Shown here: positions 11,896 to 55,110 of the stretch, piece after piece
Numbering within the stretch: the stretch's first letter is position 1
How the letters are laid out: the number at the start of each line of letters is the position of its first letter
Source of the DNA: Murinocardiopsis flavida
GTDB taxonomy: Bacteria; Actinomycetota; Actinomycetes; Streptosporangiales; Streptosporangiaceae
DNA length: 64,000 nt
NCBI RefSeq assembly: GCF_003014485.1
Contig: NZ_PYGA01000001.1
Span: 248,001 to 312,000 of the forward strand
Direction of reading: 5' to 3'
Position numbers and translations under genes: made by a program
The notes under the pieces: generated by a model
Told to the model about the DNA's origin: nothing
What the model saw: only the letters and a program-made list of their open reading frames with translations
The model's database searches: none

Positions 11896-12040
11896 ACCGT
11901 TCGCTGTCGCTGTCGTTGTCGCTGCTGCTGTCTCCGCCGGAGACCGGGGGCGGCCGCGGCGGCCGGGGCGACCCGGGACAGCGGGTAACCGGGGGCGGGC
12001 GCAGTTCGGCGCCCGCCCCCGGCGTGTGCGCCCGGGTCCG

Positions 12041-15950: not shown

Positions 15951-15984
15951 GCGGACGGCAGGCGGCCCACCGCCTGCCGTCCGC
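15951..15984 (-). terminator. Hairpin downstream of DUF418 gene
   Basis: Perfect 15-bp arms (15951-15965, 15970-15984) around a 4-nt loop, 119 bp past the stop of the DUF418 gene. There is no T-run. Confidence 0.6.
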
Positions 15985-27392: not shown

Positions 27393-27433
27393 ACGCGTAG
27401 GGCGGGCCAGCAGAACTGGCCCGCCCTACGCGT
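27393..27433 (-). terminator. Intrinsic terminator of rplU-rpmA
   Basis: Perfect 18-bp arms (27393-27410 and 27416-27433), 5-nt loop, followed on the minus strand by TTTT. This is the most canonical intrinsic terminator of the minus-strand core cluster. Confidence 0.9.
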
Positions 27434-28263: not shown

Positions 28264-31050
28264 TCAGCCGGCCTCCGCCGCGGCCTCGGACGCCGCCGAC
28301 GCGGCCTTGGTGCGCCGGGTCCGGCGGCGGCGCGGACGCTCCGCCTCGGGCTCCGCGGCGACCTCAGCCGGCGCGGTGTCGACCGCCGCGGCCGGCGCCT
28401 CGGCCTCCGGGGCGTCCTTCTCGGCGCCCTTGGCGTCGTCCTTCCGGCTGCGGCGGGGCGACTTCCGCGGCTTCTTCGCCGGGGCCTCCGCCGCCGGGGC
28501 CTCGGGCTCCGCTTCGGGTTCGGGCGCGGCCTCCGCCGGTTCGCGGACCTGTTCGTCGGCCGCGGCGTCGTCCTTGGCCGGCTTGTCCTGGGACTTGCCC
28601 TTCTTCTTGCGCCCGCCGCCGGAGGACTGCTGCCCGCTCTGGCCGCCACCGCCGTTGCCGTTGCCGGACCCCTTGGCCTCCACCGGCTCGGTGGAGATCA
28701 TCAGCCCGCGCCCGTTGCAGGTCTCGCAGGTGTGCGAGAACGCCTCCAGCAGGCCCTGGCCGACCCGCTTGCGGGTCATCTGCACGAGGCCCAGCGAGGT
28801 CACCTCGGCGACCTGGTGCTTGGTGCGGTCGCGCGAGAGGCACTCCAGCAGCCGCCGCAGCACGAGGTCGCGGTTGGACTCCAGCACCATGTCGATGAAG
28901 TCGATGACGATGATGCCGCCGATGTCGCGCAGCCGCAGCTGGCGGACGATCTCCTCGGCGGCCTCCAGGTTGTTCTTGGTGACGGTCTCTTCGAGGTTGC
29001 CGCCCTGGCCGGTGAACTTGCCGGTGTTCACGTCGACCACGGTCATGGCCTCGGTCCGGTCGATGACCAGCGACCCGCCGCTCGGCAGCCAGACCTTGCG
29101 GTCGAGCGCCTTGGCGATCTGCTCGTCGATGCGGTACGCCTCGAAGACGTCGCGCTCGCCGTCGTACTTCTTGAGCCGCTCGGCCAGGTTCGGCGCCACG
29201 TAGTCGACGTACTCCTCGACCGTGGCCTGCGCCTCCTCACCGGCGACCACCATGGAGGAGAAGTCCTCGTTGAAGACGTCGCGCACGACCCGGATGGTGA
29301 GGTCGGGCTCGCTGTTGAGCAGCGACGGCGCGCTCGCGGTCTTCGACTTCTTCTTGATCGACTCCCACTGCTTGGCGAGCCGGGTGATGTCGCGCTCCAG
29401 CTCCTCCTCGCTCGCCCCCTCGGACGCGGTGCGCACGATGACACCGGCGTTCTCGGGCATGACCTTCTTCAGGATCTGCTTGAGCCGCGCGCGCTCCTTG
29501 TCGGGGAGCTTGCGGCTGATCCCGGTCATCGAGCCTTCGGGGACGTAGACGAGGTAGCGGCCGGGAAGGCTGATCTGGCTGGTCAGCCGGGCGCCCTTGT
29601 GACCGAGCGGGTCCTTGGTGACCTGCACCAGGACCGACTGCCCCGACTTCAGCGCGGACTCGATGCGCTTGGGCTGGCCCTCCAGCCCGGACGCGTCCCA
29701 GTTGACCTCGCCCGCGTACAGCACGGCGTTGCGGCCCTTGCCGATGTCGACGAACGCCGCCTCCATCGACGGCAGCACGTTCTGCACCCGGCCCAGGTAG
29801 ACGTTGCCGACGTAGGACTTGTGGCTCGCGCGGTCGACGTAGTGCTCGACGAGGACGTCGTCCTCGAGCACCGCGATCTGGGTGCGCTCGCCGTTGCGGC
29901 GGATGACGAGGTCGCGCTTGACCGCCTCGCGGCGCGCCAGGAACTCCGACTCGGTGATGATCGGCGCGCGGCGGCGGCCCTGCTCGCGGCCCTCGCGGCG
30001 GCGCTGCTTCTTGGCTTCGAGCCGGGTCGAGCCGCGGACCGACTGGACCTCGTCCTCGATGGGACGCTCGGGGCGCGGTTCGCGCACCCGCACGACGGTG
30101 TTGGGCGGGTCGTCGGTCCCGCCGCCGCCGTCGTCGTCGCCGCTGGCGCGCCGCCGCCTGCGGCGGCGCCTGCGGCTGGAGGCGGAGTCGTCGCCGTTGT
30201 CGTCGGAGTCGTCCGCTGCGGAACCGCCGCTGCCGCCGTCGCGGCCGGCGGATTCGGTCGAGCCGTCGGCACCGCCGTCGGCGGAGTCGCGGCCCGAGCC
30301 GCCGGAGGTCTCGGCGCCCCCTTCGTCGCCGCGGAGCTTGCCCCTGCCGCGGCCGCCCCTGCGCCTGCGCCGCCGCGAGGGGCGGTCGTCGTCATCGTCG
30401 TCGTCATCGTCGGACTCCGCAGCCTCGGCCTCGGCCTCCGCCGGGGCGGGTGCGGCCTCCTCGACCACCCGCGCGACCCGCTTGCTCTCGGCGCGGGCCG
30501 GTGCGACGGGCGGCTGGAACAGCACCATGGCGGGCCGGAACGAGAGCTGGTCGGCGTCCTCGGCGTCCTCGGCGAGTTCGGGGTCCTCGGCGTCGTCGAG
30601 GCGAACGGCCTCCTCGGCGAACGGGTCGCCGGCCTCGGGCGCGGCGTTCTCGGCCGGGACCGGCGCCACGGGCGCGGGCTCCTCCGGCGCCGCGGCCGCG
30701 GCCTTGGTCCGCCGGGTACGCGTGGTCTTCGCCCGGGTGCGCTTCGCGGCGGGCGCGGGGGCCTCCTCCTCGGCGGGGGCCTGCCCGGCTTCCTCGGCTG
30801 CGACGTCCTCGATCACGGCGGAGTCGGTGCCGGCGGCCACCGTCGTGGGCGCGGCGGGGGCGGGCTCGGGTTCGGGCGGCGGGCCGGCGGCGCGGCGGGC
30901 GCCGCGCCCCTTGCCCGGCGCACTCACCTGCACCTGGACGTCCTCGGACTGCGGAACCGCCGTCGTGGCGTTCGCGGTCCGGTCGGTTTCTTCGTCTGTA
31001 GTTGTGCCCGCGGTGCCTTCGGCACCGCTACTGGGCTCGTTTTCGAGCAT
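28264..31050 (-). CDS. rne: Ribonuclease E/G family protein
   Basis: 928 residues, with GGGAG upstream of the ATG. A long acidic/Ala-rich and then Arg-rich N-terminal extension (about 1-370, including runs of Asp followed by RRRRRGGRGRG) precedes the catalytic core. The core shows the S1 region (YVGNVYLGRVQNVLPSMEAA), the DNase I-like site IGGIIVIDFIDMVLESNRDL with the metal-binding Asp residues, and the zinc-link CETCNGRG. A second low-complexity tail of about 170 residues follows. This layout, with scaffolds on both sides, matches actinobacterial RNase E/G, which initiates mRNA decay and rRNA processing. It precedes rplU. Confidence 0.95.
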   Translation of the reverse strand: MLENEPSSGAEGTAGTTTDEETDRTANATTAVPQSEDVQVQVSAPGKGRGARRAAGPPPEPEPAPAAPTTVAAGTDSAVIEDVAAEEAGQAPAEEEAPAPAAKRTRAKTTRTRRTKAAAAAPEEPAPVAPVPAENAAPEAGDPFAEEAVRLDDAEDPELAEDAEDADQLSFRPAMVLFQPPVAPARAESKRVARVVEEAAPAPAEAEAEAAESDDDDDDDDDRPSRRRRRRGGRGRGKLRGDEGGAETSGGSGRDSADGGADGSTESAGRDGGSGGSAADDSDDNGDDSASSRRRRRRRRRASGDDDGGGGTDDPPNTVVRVREPRPERPIEDEVQSVRGSTRLEAKKQRRREGREQGRRRAPIITESEFLARREAVKRDLVIRRNGERTQIAVLEDDVLVEHYVDRASHKSYVGNVYLGRVQNVLPSMEAAFVDIGKGRNAVLYAGEVNWDASGLEGQPKRIESALKSGQSVLVQVTKDPLGHKGARLTSQISLPGRYLVYVPEGSMTGISRKLPDKERARLKQILKKVMPENAGVIVRTASEGASEEELERDITRLAKQWESIKKKSKTASAPSLLNSEPDLTIRVVRDVFNEDFSSMVVAGEEAQATVEEYVDYVAPNLAERLKKYDGERDVFEAYRIDEQIAKALDRKVWLPSGGSLVIDRTEAMTVVDVNTGKFTGQGGNLEETVTKNNLEAAEEIVRQLRLRDIGGIIVIDFIDMVLESNRDLVLRRLLECLSRDRTKHQVAEVTSLGLVQMTRKRVGQGLLEAFSHTCETCNGRGLMISTEPVEAKGSGNGNGGGGQSGQQSSGGGRKKKGKSQDKPAKDDAAADEQVREPAEAAPEPEAEPEAPAAEAPAKKPRKSPRRSRKDDAKGAEKDAPEAEAPAAAVDTAPAEVAAEPEAERPRRRRTRRTKAASAASEAAAEAG

Positions 31051-31210: not shown

Positions 31211-32137
31211 TCACGCATCTGACGTGCTCCGCGCGGGCGTCGACAACGGCGGTGTCTCCGGTACGAGGCCGACCGGTACGGTCGGCGCCGTCCGCTCGCC
31301 GGGTGGTCCGCCGATGCGACCGGCGTCCCGGTCGGCGGCGGTACCAACGGCGAATGGATCGCCGATCGTTCCGGCGGTCTCGTCAAGGGGCCCCTGCGCC
31401 AGCCTGGTCATCAGCGGTGATGACGGCGGCGCGAGGCCGGCCACCTGGCGGAGACCGGTCACCACGTCGTCGGGTCGAACGGCAGGTGTCGTGTGCCGGA
31501 CGACCATGCGAAGTATGGCATATATATCGTATTGCACCGCTGAGGCACGCGGGTCCGATTCCATCCGGACCACGGCCTCCCTGGTATCGAAGCGACGGCG
31601 GCCCTTCTTGGTGACCCGCTCCACCTCGACCGAATCGGCCGCGAGGAACACGGCCACCGCCGCCGCGGCGTCGCCGGGTGCGACTCCGGGCATCTCCACT
31701 CGCCATTCCGACGCCTGGAGACGGTCGGCCAGACCGTCGGGACCCGCCTCGACGACCTCGACGATGTCGATGCCATCGGGCATGGCCCGGTCGAGCCGGG
31801 ACCGGACGTCGTCCGGGTCGCCGTGCGCGGCGAGCGTCATCTCGAAGTACTCCGCCTCACTGGCGACCCCGGTGGGGGCGGCGCCGGTGTAGGAGAGCTT
31901 CGGGTGCGGCGAGAACCCCGCTGAGAACGCCACGGGAACCGCGGCCCTGCGCAACGCGCGCTCCAGCGCCCGGGCGATGTCGCGATGGCTCGCGAACCGC
32001 ATCCGACCGCGCTTGGCGTAGCGGACGCGCAGGCGTTGCGCCCGGTCTCCGTTGGAGGACGGGTGAGCGTCCTCAGGTGCGGGGGGCAGTGCTGCTCCTT
32101 TCCGTCCAGGTTCGACCGGCCGCCGGGTGTGTCCCAT
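31211..32137 (-). CDS. TIGR03936-type radical-SAM-associated protein (DUF2344)
   Basis: 308 residues from the ATG at 32137 (AGGG six bases upstream). The domain begins at LRVRYAKRGRMRFASHRDIA, continues AFSAGFSPHPKLSYTGAAPT and VASEAEYFEMTL, and is complete by about residue 205. The C-terminal 100 residues are variable. This family nearly always neighbours, or is fused to, the TIGR03960 radical-SAM protein, here encoded 510 bp upstream. The biochemical role is unknown; the pair is suspected to modify RNA or a ribosomal component because of linkage with rne, rplU and rpmA. Confidence 0.9.
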   Translation of the reverse strand: MGHTRRPVEPGRKGAALPPAPEDAHPSSNGDRAQRLRVRYAKRGRMRFASHRDIARALERALRRAAVPVAFSAGFSPHPKLSYTGAAPTGVASEAEYFEMTLAAHGDPDDVRSRLDRAMPDGIDIVEVVEAGPDGLADRLQASEWRVEMPGVAPGDAAAAVAVFLAADSVEVERVTKKGRRRFDTREAVVRMESDPRASAVQYDIYAILRMVVRHTTPAVRPDDVVTGLRQVAGLAPPSSPLMTRLAQGPLDETAGTIGDPFAVGTAADRDAGRIGGPPGERTAPTVPVGLVPETPPLSTPARSTSDA

Positions 32138-32647
32138 TGCACCCTGCGTGCCGACCCGCGGAGCGGCCGTGCCGCCGCGGGTCAACCGGCTGTCTCTTCG
32201 AGGTGGCCCCTGGTGTGAGGCCGCCTCCCATTCAGGTTACGGTGCGCTCCAAGGCCGTCGCGCCAGCGGCCCCTGGCCGGGGCCGTCGGCGGCGCGCACC
32301 GTGCGGTGGGCCCGGTGCCGCCCCGAGGCGGCGCCCGGCTCCGCGCGGTCCACACGTGTGGCCTTCCCCGCCGGGGGGCGGTTGAAAAGCCGTCGGCCGC
32401 GGCCCCCGACCCGGCCGCCCGCCCGTGGCCGAACCCTGCCACGGGCCCTCCGCGACCTGCGGCGCCGGAACCCGCAAGAAATTCTTCAAAGAATCTTCGC
32501 GGGCATGCAAACCATTCGGAGCGCCCACTCGTCTTAGTACACGTACGGCCCGGCGCGAGCGGGGCGCCGGGCCGTACTTCATCCTCTGCCCGGTGCCACG
32601 GCACCGGGCTTTTGCGTTGTCAGGGGCCGGTGTTGTCAGGGGCCCAT
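32138..32647. other. Non-coding region between the radical-SAM pair
   Basis: No CDS is supported over 510 bp. The right third carries one AT-rich and two GC-rich stem-loops (32471-32613). The left part is GC-rich without clear structure and should hold the promoter of the TIGR03936 gene. Confidence 0.6.
32471..32613 (+). ncRNA. Candidate structured small RNA with intrinsic terminator
   Basis: Three stem-loops occur in a row: cccgc...gcggg around an AT-rich core (32471-32503); 14-bp perfect arms at 32543-32556 and 32564-32577; and gcccggtgcc/ggcaccgggc (32588-32597, 32600-32609) followed by TTTT at 32610-32613. The T-run places termination on the plus strand, yet every gene between 24.7 and 47.4 kb is on the minus strand. 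A plus-strand small RNA is the simplest reading. No promoter was fixed. Confidence 0.4.
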
Positions 32648-34582
32648 TCAGGCGATGGTCAGCGGGAGCAGCTTGGAGCGGTCGCTCGGGCCGATCTGGA
32701 TCTCGGTGCCCATGCTCGGGCACACCCCGCAGTCGTAGCAGGGCGTCCACCGGCAGTCGTCGACCTCGACCGACTCCGAGCCGTGCAGGGAGTCCTGCCA
32801 GTCCTGCCAGAGCCAGTCGCGGTCGAGCCCGGCGTCGAGGTGGTCCCACGGCAGCACTTCGTCCTGGTCGCGCTCGCGCACGGTGAAGAAGTCGAGGTCG
32901 ACCCCTGCCTTCGGGAGCTCCGCCGCGGCGCAGCCCGCCCAGCGGTCGTAGCTGAAGTGCTCGCTCCACCCGTCGAACCGGGCGCCGTCGCGCCACACCG
33001 CCTCCACGACGGCGCCCACGCGGCGGTCGCCCCGCGACAGCAGCCCTTCGATGATGGACGGGCGGCCCTCGTGGTAGCGCAGCCCGACCGACTTGCCGTA
33101 GCGCTTGTCGTCGCGCAGGGCGGCGCGCAGCTTGCGCAGCCGCGCGTCGACCACCTCGTGCGCGGTCTGCCCGGCCCACTGGAACGGGGTCTGCGGCTTG
33201 GGCACGAACCCGCCGATGGACACGGTGCAGCGGATGTCCTTGCGGCCCGTGACCTCGCGCCCGGTCCTGATGACCTCCCGCGCGAGGTCGGCGATGGCGA
33301 GCACGTCCTCGTCGGTCTCGGTGGGCAGCCCGCACATGAAGTACAGCTTCACCTGGCGCCACCCGGCGGCGTAGGCGGCCGTGACGGTGCGGATCAGGTC
33401 GGCCTCGGTGACCATCTTGTTGATGACCCGGCGCATGCGCTCGCTGCCGCCCTCAGGGGCGAAGGTCAGCCCCGACCGGCGGCCGTTGCGGGTGAGCTCG
33501 TTGGCGAGCTCGATGTTGAACGCGTCGACCCGCGTGGACGGCAGGGACAGCCCGGTTCCGGTGCCCTCGTAGGAGTCGGCGAGGTCCTTCGCGATACCGC
33601 CGATCTCGGAGTGGTCGGCGCTCGACAGCGACAGCAGGCCGACCTCCTGGAATCCGGAGGACTTCACGCCGTCGGCCACCATCGCCGTGACGGTGTCGCG
33701 GCTGCGCTCGCGGACCGGGCGGGTGATCATCCCGGCCTGGCAGAACCGGCAGCCGCGCGTGCAGCCGCGGAAGATCTCCACGCTGTAGCGCTCGTGGACC
33801 GACTCCGCCATGGGCACGATGGGGTTCTTCGGGTAGGGCCACTGGTCGAGGTCCATCACCGTGTGCTTCTGCACCTGCCACGGGACGCCCGCGCGGTTGG
33901 GGCTGTAGCGCTCGATCCTGCCGTCGGGCAGGTAGCCGACGTCGTAGAACCGCGGGATGTACACCCCGCCGCCCGCGGCGAGGCGCAGCAGCAGGCCGTC
34001 GCGCCCGCCGGGCCGCCCCTCGCGCTTCCACTCGCGGATGACCTCGGTGATGGCGAGGGTTATCGCCTCGCCGTCGCCGAGCACCACCGCGTCGAGGAAG
34101 TCGGCGATGGGTTCGGGGTTGAACGCCGAGTGGCCGCCGGCGAGGACGACCGGGTGGTCCGCCCCGCGGTCGGCGGAGCGCAGCGGGATGCCCGCGAGGT
34201 CGAGGGCCGTGAGCATGTTGGTGTAGCCCATCTCGCTGGCGAAGCTCAGCCCCAGCACGTCGAAGGCGCCCACGGGGCGGTGGGCGTCGACCGTGAACTG
34301 GGGGATCCCGTGCTCGCGCATGATCCGTTCGAGGTCGGACCAGACGGAGTACGTGCGCTCGGCGAGGACCCCCTCGCGCTCGTTCAGCACCTCGTAGAGG
34401 ATCTGCACGCCCTGGTTGGGCACGCCCACCTCGTAGGCGTCGGGGTACATCAGCGCCCACCGGACCTCGGCGCCGTCCCAGTCCTTGATGACGGAGTTCA
34501 ACTCGCCGCCCACGTACTGGATGGGCTTCTGCACGCTGGCGAGCAGCGGTTCGAGCCGGGGGAAGACGGATTCGACGGGCAT
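32648..34582 (-). CDS. TIGR03960-family B12-binding-like radical SAM protein
   Basis: 644 residues from the ATG at 34582 (MPVESVFPRLEPLLASVQKP); an earlier in-frame start adds six residues. A degenerate B12-binding-like domain covers about 30-200 (ALMYPDAYEVGVPNQGVQIL, VVLAGGHSAFNPEPIADFLD). The radical-SAM domain begins with the cluster motif CTRGCRFC (C-x3-C-x2-C). Other motifs are FAPEGGSERMRRVINKMVTE and LYFMCGLPTETDED. Near the C-terminus, CYDCGVCPSMG may bind a second iron-sulfur cluster. The reaction is unknown. It lies downstream of rodA and upstream of its usual partner TIGR03936. Confidence 0.95.
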   Translation of the reverse strand: MPVESVFPRLEPLLASVQKPIQYVGGELNSVIKDWDGAEVRWALMYPDAYEVGVPNQGVQILYEVLNEREGVLAERTYSVWSDLERIMREHGIPQFTVDAHRPVGAFDVLGLSFASEMGYTNMLTALDLAGIPLRSADRGADHPVVLAGGHSAFNPEPIADFLDAVVLGDGEAITLAITEVIREWKREGRPGGRDGLLLRLAAGGGVYIPRFYDVGYLPDGRIERYSPNRAGVPWQVQKHTVMDLDQWPYPKNPIVPMAESVHERYSVEIFRGCTRGCRFCQAGMITRPVRERSRDTVTAMVADGVKSSGFQEVGLLSLSSADHSEIGGIAKDLADSYEGTGTGLSLPSTRVDAFNIELANELTRNGRRSGLTFAPEGGSERMRRVINKMVTEADLIRTVTAAYAAGWRQVKLYFMCGLPTETDEDVLAIADLAREVIRTGREVTGRKDIRCTVSIGGFVPKPQTPFQWAGQTAHEVVDARLRKLRAALRDDKRYGKSVGLRYHEGRPSIIEGLLSRGDRRVGAVVEAVWRDGARFDGWSEHFSYDRWAGCAAAELPKAGVDLDFFTVRERDQDEVLPWDHLDAGLDRDWLWQDWQDSLHGSESVEVDDCRWTPCYDCGVCPSMGTEIQIGPSDRSKLLPLTIA

Positions 34583-34718
34583 TGGTCGGGCCTTTCGCAC
34601 GCGGGTCCCCGGACGGCCGGTCTCCGGCGGAGGGCCGGCCCTGCCGCCGATGCGGATCCGGCTCGTCCACGCCGGATCCGCCCAGGCTAGCCGTTCCCAC
34701 CCCAGGGCTTTCCCACCC

Positions 34719-40971: not shown

Positions 40972-40996
40972 GTGCCGGAGGCTACCCCTCCGGCAC
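40972..40996 (-). terminator. Intrinsic terminator of ndk
   Basis: Arms gtgccggagg (40972-40981) and cctccggcac (40987-40996), 5-nt loop. The flanking A-run at 40967-40971 reads as TTTTT on the minus strand, directly after the hairpin. It separates ndk from mreB. Confidence 0.9.
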
Positions 40997-43602: not shown

Positions 43603-45642
43603 TCAGTCCGGGGAGCCAACACCGCCGAGTTCGGCCAGGTTTCGCCGTGTCAGGACGGTATCGGGGTGGCTGTCTCCGAGAAGCCGCTCCTGATCTCCGA
43701 GCACGCTGCGGAGCCGTGCCTCGGCTTCCGCGCGAGCCCCGAGGCGACCTGCGATCCACGCGGTCGCATGGCGGGCACGAAGGGTATCCGGGTGCGTGGA
43801 GCCCAGCGAATGCTCGCGCGAGTGCAGGATGCGTTCATAAAGCGCCGCCGCTTCCGGGAGGTCTCCCTGCCGTTGCGCAATCCAGGCGAGGGCGAGGAGG
43901 GTCGAAAGGGTATCCCTGTGCTCCGAGCCAAGCATGCGCATCCGCATCTCGTACACTTCGCCGAATTCGGCTCTGGCCCGATCGAGTTCGCCGCGTTGTG
44001 CCGATATCCACGCCAGTCCCTGGCGGGCACGCATTGCCCCCGCGTGTTGCTGCTCGTTCCTCTTCGCGTGCAGTCGAAGCGCCAGTCGGTACTCGGCTTC
44101 TGCCGAATCGTGGTCGCCCATCTCTGCCAACAGCCATGCGAGCCCGCGATGGGCGGTGACCGTGTCGCCGTCCTCCTCTCCCAGGACACGGCGGCGGGCT
44201 TCGAGGATCGCGACGTACTCCGGATGTGCACGCTCCAACTCCCCGCGGCGAACCAGCGCAAACGCCAGACGGTGCCGGGTTCGCAGTGTGTCGGGGTGGT
44301 CGTCCCCCAACACGATGGACTGCACTTCGAGACCTGCGCCGTAGGCGCTCTCCTCCATCACCAGATCGCGGCCCTCGTCCATGTGGACGAGTTCGAAGGC
44401 GGCCGCCACGACAGCGATGGCCTGGTCGCCGAATTGCCGACGCGTCGTCTCTGCGACTACGGGATGCATCCCGACGGTCGGTTCGCCGTTGACCGAACTC
44501 ATATCGATCAGGCTGCGCGAGGCGAGTTCCATCAACGCTCGATCGACGTCGGCGGCTGTCAGCGCTTCCGTACCGATATCCACGATGGATCCGGCAAGCC
44601 GCTCGGCCGCGAGCCGTCGGACGGGGACCCTGGCTCCTCGATGGCCGAGGAGCGCCAGGATCGAGAGCAGGGGGCGTGCATGCGAATGCTCCGGAATGAA
44701 CGATGTCACCGAAAAATCCCAAACTCGTGTCAGTAGCGATTGCTGCTCGTCCGCTGTCGAACTCTCCGCACCTGAGGGAGTATCCGCATGTATCGATACC
44801 TGAAGGTGGGCCAGTGCCCCTTCGTATCCGTCAATCGCCAGCGGATGCTCTCGTATCAGCCTGCCGACGAGGCGGAGTGCCAGCCCGACGCCGCCCAGGA
44901 GTTCCGCAAGATCCCAGGCGGCCCTGGGAATCGGGGTTTCCGCATCCTGAGCGGCGACTGCCGCATGGTCCCGCAGGACGAGCACTGAATCAGTGACAGG
45001 CAACGGATCCACTGCGTGCATGCGGGCGGGGCGCCACACATCGTGCCGACCGACCCTGGAGGTCACCAGCGTCGTCCCCGCCATGCTCCCGCGAATCCAG
45101 CCCCTGCTTCCTCCGGGCACACCACCATCAGCGATATCGGCGACGTGATCAAGACTGTCGAATACCAGCAGCCACGGCTCAGGACTCGCATGCAGCCACT
45201 GCCAGGCCCAACGGCAGGCGCGCTGGGGCAAGCCCGAATAGTGGATCGCATCGGTCATGGAGCCGCCGAGTTCCACGGCAACCCAGAGCATCGACGCCAT
45301 CATCTGCTCCGGATGCACCCAGAACACCGGAATACCCTGGCTTTCCGCCTGCTCGGCGAGTGCCTGCGCGACCGTGGTCTTGCCACAACCGCCGAGACCG
45401 TGCAGCACCCGCGGTACACCATCGGGTTCCGAGAGCAGTGCAGTCAGCTCGGCCATGATTTCGCGGCGGTCGCGAAGCGGACCTTCCAAATTAGGCGGGT
45501 CGAGGCTGACGTCATCAAGCCTGCCCGGCCCGGAGCCAAGGGGATCGCCCGCGGACGCAGCGTAGATGTGCACTCCGCCACGGATGCTTCCTGCCTGCAC
45601 GAGATGGCCGCTGACGTTTCCGTGTGAGGCGTTCTCGGTCAC
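43603..45642 (-). CDS. STAND/NLR-like NTPase with C-terminal TPR repeats
   Basis: 679 residues, GTG start. The N-terminus has GNVSGHLVQAGSIRGGVHIY (residues 8-27), resembling the pseudo-palindromic, RHIM-like amyloid signalling motifs described in bacterial NLR-type proteins. The NTPase domain has P-loop GLGGCGKTT (82-90), Walker B PWLLVFDSLDH (156-166) and sensor TLVTSR (191-196). A winged-helix region follows. From about residue 450 there are five or six 42-residue TPR units with the signature LG..HPDTL..R. A ligand-gated switch is expected: TPRs sense, the NTPase oligomerises, and the N-terminal motif recruits an effector. No effector gene is adjacent. Base composition is less GC-rich than the core genes around it. 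Confidence 0.88.
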   Translation of the reverse strand: MTENASHGNVSGHLVQAGSIRGGVHIYAASAGDPLGSGPGRLDDVSLDPPNLEGPLRDRREIMAELTALLSEPDGVPRVLHGLGGCGKTTVAQALAEQAESQGIPVFWVHPEQMMASMLWVAVELGGSMTDAIHYSGLPQRACRWAWQWLHASPEPWLLVFDSLDHVADIADGGVPGGSRGWIRGSMAGTTLVTSRVGRHDVWRPARMHAVDPLPVTDSVLVLRDHAAVAAQDAETPIPRAAWDLAELLGGVGLALRLVGRLIREHPLAIDGYEGALAHLQVSIHADTPSGAESSTADEQQSLLTRVWDFSVTSFIPEHSHARPLLSILALLGHRGARVPVRRLAAERLAGSIVDIGTEALTAADVDRALMELASRSLIDMSSVNGEPTVGMHPVVAETTRRQFGDQAIAVVAAAFELVHMDEGRDLVMEESAYGAGLEVQSIVLGDDHPDTLRTRHRLAFALVRRGELERAHPEYVAILEARRRVLGEEDGDTVTAHRGLAWLLAEMGDHDSAEAEYRLALRLHAKRNEQQHAGAMRARQGLAWISAQRGELDRARAEFGEVYEMRMRMLGSEHRDTLSTLLALAWIAQRQGDLPEAAALYERILHSREHSLGSTHPDTLRARHATAWIAGRLGARAEAEARLRSVLGDQERLLGDSHPDTVLTRRNLAELGGVGSPD

Positions 45643-55068: not shown

Positions 55069-55110
55069 CACCAGGGCCCCGCGCCGACTGCTCGGCGCGG
55101 GGCCCTGGTG
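55069..55110 (-). terminator. Strong hairpin after tig
   Basis: Perfect 19-bp GC arms (55069-55087, 55092-55110) with a 4-nt loop, 51 bp past the tig stop. No T-run. It insulates clpP1P2 from tig. Confidence 0.85.

Follow-up and report, generated by a model that had tools for sequence, protein, structure and literature searches.

An intergenic promoter–hairpin element of Murinocardiopsis flavida, most likely an ECF-controlled small RNA related to a sigma-gene leader

The intergenic region between the TIGR03960 and TIGR03936 genes of Murinocardiopsis flavida contains a conserved plus-strand element that, judged from its sequence and those of its relatives, is most likely an ECF-controlled small RNA with a promoter and a hairpin in common with a sigma-gene leader. 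We consider it rather probable that the locus is a small plus-strand RNA gene with an ECF promoter, whose hairpin was kept from the leader of a lost sigma gene and acts in trans. The element lies in a 64,000-nt stretch of contig NZ_PYGA01000001.1 (the window), and its parts and neighbours are as follows.

28264–31050, minus strand: RNase E/G family gene (rne; TIGR00757, 520.2 bits against a cut-off of 325.95).
31211–32185 (open reading frame bounds, start provisional), minus strand: TIGR03936 gene, divergent neighbour (190.4 bits against a cut-off of 71.9).
32471–32505, plus strand: AT-rich tract forming an imperfect stem upstream of the -35-like block, read as putative UP-like promoter DNA.
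32506–32513, plus strand: -35-like block TGCAAACC, with TG..AACC in 33 of 33 aligned rows.
32530–32536, plus strand: -10-like block CGTCTTA, with GTC 17 nt after AACC (16 nt to the C of CGTC).
32543–32577, plus strand: 14-bp hairpin with loop GAGCGGG, the conserved core, assessed by covariation and a wobble strand test.
32578–32587, plus strand: G-free tail TTCATCCTCT, with 0–12% G per position in 59 elements of the window's hairpin type.
32588–32613, plus strand: intrinsic terminator with a 9-bp stem, a loop of 4 and TTTT (stem 32588–32609), variable in position among relatives.
32648–34600, minus strand: TIGR03960 B12-binding radical SAM gene, convergent neighbour (688.8 bits against a cut-off of 462.3).

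Stem-loops and terminator of the window locus

The first-pass annotation had noted an absence of plus-strand genes between about 24.7 and 47.4 kb, and this is borne out among the open reading frames tested. In two sets covering 24.7–48.6 kb (3 + 7 family-matching frames), every family match lies on the minus strand, and four plus-strand frames from the same interval gave none. The minus-strand frame at 43603–45642 encodes a tetratricopeptide-repeat protein whose NACHT score (26.3) falls just under the cut-off of 26.7.

The canonical hairpin with TTTT that the same annotation had reported is found at 32588–32613. Eight of its nine base pairs are G-C and the T run follows the stem directly, as in an intrinsic terminator. 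The plus strand of the 64 kb has no other perfect hairpin of at least 9 bp (loop 3–8) with TTTT behind it, and such sites averaged 0.0 on both strands together in 20 first-order Markov shuffles. Stems of at least 14 bp also averaged 0.0 in shuffles; the real window holds a few besides 32543–32577. Two stem-loops precede the terminator, as described earlier: the AT-rich, imperfect one at 32471–32505 and the middle one at 32543–32577, with 14 perfect base pairs. The earlier emphasis on the terminator is not upheld, since the conserved core is the middle hairpin and the position of the terminator is unconserved. The AT-rich stem sits upstream of the promoter-like blocks and is probably outside the RNA. 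The region 32440–32640 folds with unusual stability on both strands (z -4.4 and -4.1), so folding alone cannot assign the strand.

Covariation and strand of the hairpin

A DNA search with query 32050–32700 matched 227 of 297 family genomes, many in short GC-rich stretches only; the window genome is the sole member of its genus in the family genome set. The best matches centre on query positions 482–528, which correspond to 32531–32577 of the window. A plus-strand alignment of 33 rows (31 distinct) was built from the window and 32 loci with a window-like hairpin, after removal of L012, L029, L031 and L032 (second copies of L048, L060 and the window). A more diverse alignment holds 44 rows, from which L150 and L161 (no promoter blocks) and L130 (a near-copy of L124) were dropped.

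In the 33-row alignment, all 434 stem cells pair and three pairs contain double changes; each of the five one-sided changes leaves G-U when the plus strand is read and A-C when the minus strand is read. In the 44-row alignment, 97.9% of the cells pair, with double changes in 7 of 13 pairs (66 cells). The covariation score of 0.339 compares with 0.134 in shuffles (none of 500 as high), and slid controls reach 0.070 at best. At least as many pairs with double changes arose in 58 of 500 shuffles, and at least as many pair types in 26 of 500. The loop core AGCGGG is present in all 44 rows. Compensatory changes, whose absence across relatives had been named beforehand as evidence against an RNA, are therefore present in the middle stem.

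The inner 12 pairs of the 44-row alignment contain eight G-U cells and no A-C cell; the outermost pair, which is not universal, has four G-U and six A-C cells. Among 116 distinct elements, selected by a pattern equally open to G-U and A-C at the counted positions, G-U is seen on the plus strand in 7 distinct hairpins and A-C in 0, or in 12 against 0 when the next outer pair is included, both being small counts. Compensatory changes together with strand-specific wobble pairs are the marks of a structured plus-strand RNA, and they indicate that the folded molecule is most likely plus-strand RNA.

These data bear on two other readings. The conserved element could be a minus-strand feature and form part of the leader or control region that serves the TIGR03936–rne operon. 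This was our first reading, drawn from the strand-neutral block spacing and dropped after the wobble test and the other loci. In the window's clade the element does sit upstream of that operon, the block spacing is fixed whichever strand is read, and the region folds equally on the minus strand. We now consider it improbable, given that one-sided changes read as G-U on the plus strand (7 against 0) would be A-C on the other, and given the occurrence of the element away from rne in other genera. Moreover, a -10-like site for TIGR03936 seems to be located past the element, which the operon RNA would then exclude. Alternatively, the hairpin arms could be a DNA palindrome serving as the operator of a repressor or activator by the promoter. 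The perfect palindrome does adjoin the promoter-like blocks, and a dimer site would also change symmetrically. The asymmetric invariant loop and the restriction of one-sided changes to G-U point instead to folded RNA and leave the operator very improbable.

Conserved blocks are also seen on the minus strand ahead of TIGR03936 in relatives (CTTTTCAAC, and GGGAACAGCACATACGTGTG with a small hairpin; window 32060–32460), and the -10-like site CACCGTAACCT lies on the minus strand within the same interval. These blocks may be a promoter region or a second RNA.

Promoter-like blocks and upstream tract

In all 33 aligned loci, TG..AACC, a variable stretch of exactly 17 bases and GTC stand ahead of the hairpin on the plus strand, and AACC-N17-GTC is present in 43 of the 44 rows of the diverse alignment. 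Immediately ahead of GTC, 14 of the 33 rows have C, which makes the motif AACC-N16-CGTC; the 19 rows with TGGCAACC have A. In 20 of the 33 loci, AACC lies outside the match that brought the locus in; in 17 of these the match starts after query position 464, and L020, L021 and L023 were found by the TIGR03960 protein. The spacing from GTC to the hairpin is 8–9 nt in all 59 elements of the window's hairpin type (116 elements examined).

ECF sigma promoters combine a -35 element containing AAC with a -10 element containing CGTC at such a spacing, and AACC-N16-CGTC shares this anatomy, so that the blocks have the shape of an ECF sigma-factor promoter. From this shape, the RNA start is expected at, or within about 2 nt of, the hairpin foot. 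The promoter-like blocks, the compensatory changes and the G-U pairs without A-C in the inner stem together argue for a plus-strand small RNA convergent with TIGR03960. A small RNA either antisense to or convergent with this radical-SAM gene had been suggested; in the window, the predicted RNA would be convergent rather than antisense.

The 42 nt ahead of TG..AACC average 49% AT in 64 elements of the window's hairpin type, against 25–34% AT in the flanks of 14 of those loci. The excess is weak in some loci (29% against a 27% flank in L033, and likewise barely above the flank in L029). The same stretches fold slightly better than shuffles (mean z -1.4; 30% below -2). The AT-rich stem at 32471–32505 is probably UP-like promoter DNA rather than RNA, the likeness to an UP element being our assumption; alternatively, it may be a binding site.

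Tail and 3' end

Hairpin types were sorted by the letters at the hairpin foot, irrespective of locus. In the window's type, the tail that follows 32543–32577 is a G-free pyrimidine tract with more C than T; G is rare from +1 to +10 (59 elements) and returns at +11 to +14. Over the same ten positions, G makes up 5–14% in 22 elements of the sigma-gene type and, less strictly, 3–26% in 31 elements of a third type. The terminator of the window begins exactly at +11 after the 14-bp hairpin. The distance from the hairpin to the TIGR03960 stop codon ranges from 18 to 395 nt in 33 loci, and length and 3' end are unconserved. Only the hairpin and the tail are thus common, and the predicted RNA could be about 45 nt long, or about 71 nt if it extends to TTTT. 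An RNA of greater length would be antisense to TIGR03960 in four relatives, where the stop codon of that gene lies only 18–35 nt past the hairpin.

The variable 3' side could also be expected if the site served merely as a terminator region used jointly by convergent or adjacent units and contained no separate RNA gene. Strong hairpins do lie ahead of the TIGR03960 stop codon at variable distances in relatives, and a looser terminator scan of the surrounding 9 kb, which gave 2 sites against 3.4 (sd 1.9) in shuffles, shows no terminator enrichment. We nevertheless regard a simple terminator region as improbable, as a terminator needs neither blocks spaced by a fixed 17 nt, nor an invariant loop, nor a place before sigma genes.

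The main rival to a trans-acting RNA is a promoter-proximal attenuator, in which transcription would stop after about 45 nt, at the hairpin and its pyrimidine tract, and read-through would feed the next gene; the window locus would then be a leftover or a transcriptional sink with no function in trans. The element stands directly ahead of a gene in many loci, the tail from +1 to +10 is G-poor and T-rich where the sigma gene follows (22 elements, T at most 55% per position), and a few tails are U-rich (L134, L294, L302). The window-type tail, however, is C-rich rather than U-rich, and a terminator needs no invariant loop core such as the AGCGGG found in 44 of 44 rows. Retention of the element without a sigma gene, in 35 rne-type and 8 APH-type loci among the matches listed, also speaks against attenuation, which we therefore judge unlikely.

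Distribution and gene contexts

A covariance model of promoter and hairpin (R1; E of 0.001 or better) matched 158 of 341 family genomes and 51 of 68 genera, some by chance; among 40 further R1 places inspected, two were chance matches (L150, L161). A broader model, R2, matched 31 of 394 genomes drawn from the class, 26 of them inside the family. The five matches outside it are all weak: four (L188–L191) were inspected and lack promoter blocks, and the fifth is G502. No credible member outside the family was found among these 394 genomes or in plasmids and phages, the latter giving no match at 1e-5. Other R2 matches in the window genome, C11:58329 (33.6 bits), L193, L195 and L196, do not have the AACC-N17-GTC–hairpin arrangement; this check left out L194 and L197.

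A pattern scan of named genomes gave at least 119 stretches, and the context counts rest on 80 of these. Among these matches listed, 35 of 80 lie by TIGR03960 and/or TIGR03936 without a sigma match, and 12 lie ahead of an ECF sigma gene. A further 8 precede a phosphotransferase gene in convergent orientation (identified in L124 as APH by Pfam) and lack a sigma match, 3 lie ahead of an AsnC-type gene (Pfam in L159) and 2 ahead of a common open reading frame. Six of the 80 fall in no class, one (L292) is cut by a contig end, and 13 are chance matches with no second arm. In L251, L288 (from Thermobifida fusca) and L309, the strict second-arm pattern was missed and the hairpin is visible by eye.

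The element also precedes AsnC-type regulators (L145, L148, L159, L263, L273, L314), a lipoprotein-like gene (L126) and genes for a DMFA2_C-domain protein (L142) and a glyoxalase-like protein (L146), which hints at a possible regulon larger than the sigma gene alone. The record titled Glycomyces fuscus (L260, NYMS01000062.1) carries a TGGCAACC-type element at the rne locus, as in Nocardiopsis records, and its name may be wrong.

The associated sigma gene and the proposed origin of the element

The 12 sigma cases among the matches listed come from Thermomonospora (2), Actinomadura (2), Actinoallomurus (4), uncultured genomes (3) and Allonocardiopsis opalescens. The sigma proteins behind the element have roughly 430–600 residues, with ECF domains and long extensions after a zinc-type motif. 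Their matches to sigma-70 region 2 and to the ECF superfamily are near the cut-offs: Sigma70_r2 is above its cut-off in L151 and L162 and the ECF superfamily in L151, and L129 falls just below both. The zinc-type HxxxCxxC motif is present in 11 of 15 aligned rows, and the other four end before it. A promoter common to the element and the sigma gene suggests that the sigma gene may be autoregulated.

Two kinds of locus occur with and without the sigma gene. At the rne locus of Allonocardiopsis (L317), TIGR03936 is divergent and is followed by the element and then the sigma gene; the 35 other rne-locus cases among the matches listed carry the element without a sigma match. An APH gene is convergent behind the sigma gene in 6 of the 12 sigma loci listed. 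The 8 sigma-less APH loci listed are all from uncultured genomes, and their APH gene ends 93–188 nt after AACC. The gene upstream of the element in L283, with solute-binding and VWA domains, shows 60–74% identity in all four other sigma-bearing APH loci compared (L310 left out) and about 30% identity in 6 of the 8 sigma-less loci. The remaining two are cut 230–323 nt upstream and match the sigma-less type. APH loci with and without the sigma gene have this upstream neighbour in common. For both kinds of locus, loss of the sigma gene is the simpler reading, because element and sigma gene occur together in several genera; gain may still apply in some lineages.

Among 30 element-bearing genomes from the window's clade, a profile of the sigma N-terminus at 1e-20 found a relative in 10 and none in the other 20. 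There is no relative at this threshold in the window genome or in 8 genomes of genus g67; weaker matches in the window genome reach 8.7e-14 at best. The lack of a close sigma homologue in these 20 genomes, where the promoter would need a reader, counts against the proposed mechanism. One candidate reader, the SigE-like sigma gene at L198 (E 6.6) in the window genome, seemed to share this promoter in the form AAACC-N16-CGTCCTA. Orthologues are present in all 30 relatives searched. The frame was read by eye in the 12 of 30 loci whose upstream sequence, taken in the sense direction, shows the motif (the remaining 18 were in the opposite orientation or lack it); there the motif is in-frame with the gene and falls in a conserved stretch. 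The motif was rejected as a promoter because of this in-frame, conserved position.

Proposed mechanism and hairpin arrays

In the mechanism that we favour, an ECF-type sigma factor would recognize TGCAAACC-N16-CGTCTTA (32506–32536) and transcription would start from the foot of the 14-bp hairpin. The resulting RNA of about 45 to 71 nt would comprise the GAGCGGG-loop hairpin and the G-free tail, to which this genome adds the terminator. The element would descend from the 5' leader of an ECF52/53-like sigma gene. Some relatives have all three parts together, promoter, hairpin and gene; the corresponding loci of the window's clade lack the gene, and there only the leader would remain. The hairpin would bind a partner in trans, protein or RNA, through its loop. 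Such binding is suggested by the persistence of the element without the sigma gene, by the invariant AGCGGG and by rare arrays of three to four hairpins.

These arrays are found in L125 (3 hairpins), L128 (4) and L138 (3), each following a single promoter; no other segment among the 95 examined has at least 3. The extra stems of L138 are 9–10 bp long, and L259 has a weak second hairpin. The predicted fold of three L128 repeats favours a long-range duplex over individual hairpins, and the stability of the L151 leader does not exceed that of its shuffles (z 0.27). Arrays of three or four hairpins would fit a titrating RNA. The fuller proposal of a trans-acting hairpin RNA family derived from an ECF52/53-like leader, with the sigma gene lost at two loci and arrays that titrate a common partner, is put forward tentatively.

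Comparison with known systems

ECF-sigma-dependent small RNAs exist in Escherichia coli, namely MicA and RybB. The element resembles them as a short hairpin RNA predicted behind an ECF-type promoter and free-standing between genes. It differs in phylum and sequence and in that its promoter and hairpin are found at the head of a sigma gene as well; neither a target nor a connection to Hfq is known for the hairpin RNA. CsrB/RsmZ-type sponge RNAs contain many hairpins with a GGA loop motif. L125, L128 and L138 likewise repeat hairpins with one loop sequence, but the element usually has one hairpin, as in the window, and its loop is AGCGGG rather than GGA; the window locus is thus not a sponge RNA of this type.

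ECF52 and ECF53 sigma factors carry fused zinc, transmembrane and proline-rich parts, as described in the consulted portions of work on SCO4117 and its group (PMC8999054, PMC5826349). The sigma proteins behind the element resemble this group in having ECF domains and HxxxCxxC, a comparison made with published descriptions only. The promoter motif proposed for SCO4117, CSGYN-17bp-SRHA, differs from the motif found here, and the portions of PMC8999054 and PMC5826349 consulted make no mention of a leader hairpin for SCO4117 or ECF52/53.

Scr3202 (RF02833), a small Streptomyces RNA with two hairpins, gave a weak match over 32537–32614; at 25.4 bits (minus strand) and 20.7 bits (plus strand), it was rejected against a gathering cut-off of 52. 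Ms1 RNA, an intergenic actinobacterial small RNA that has been reported from Nocardiopsis and Thermobifida too, was set apart by context alone: in the part of PMC9130861 consulted, its neighbours are HAD hydrolase and oxidoreductase genes, as opposed to TIGR03960 and TIGR03936 here. At Rfam gathering cut-offs, the window gives two tRNAs only, both elsewhere, and L125, L128, L151 and L317 give none. We recognized no account of the element in openly licensed PubMed Central papers.

If the proposal is right, the element represents a structured RNA family across one actinobacterial family, with members in Nocardiopsis, Thermobifida, Streptomonospora, Actinomadura, Thermomonospora and other genera and without a matching Rfam entry. 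It would illustrate how a regulatory leader can become a small RNA that stands by itself, since both states, protein gene present or absent, are seen at corresponding loci. The element would also supply a candidate promoter motif for sigma factors with poorly known targets, and AACC-N17-GTC plus hairpin would be a searchable mark for their regulons.

Other repeats and hairpins in the window

The direct repeat GTTGTCAGGGGCC occurs in two copies 16 bases apart at 32616–32644, between the terminator and the TIGR03960 stop codon. A 9–10 bp hairpin at 40972–40996, with AAAA before the stem on the plus strand, has the shape of a minus-strand terminator. Further perfect long hairpins (14–19 bp) are located at 11989–12022, 15951–15984, 27393–27433 and 55069–55110, and the hairpin at 55 kb gives a weak minus-strand match to R1.
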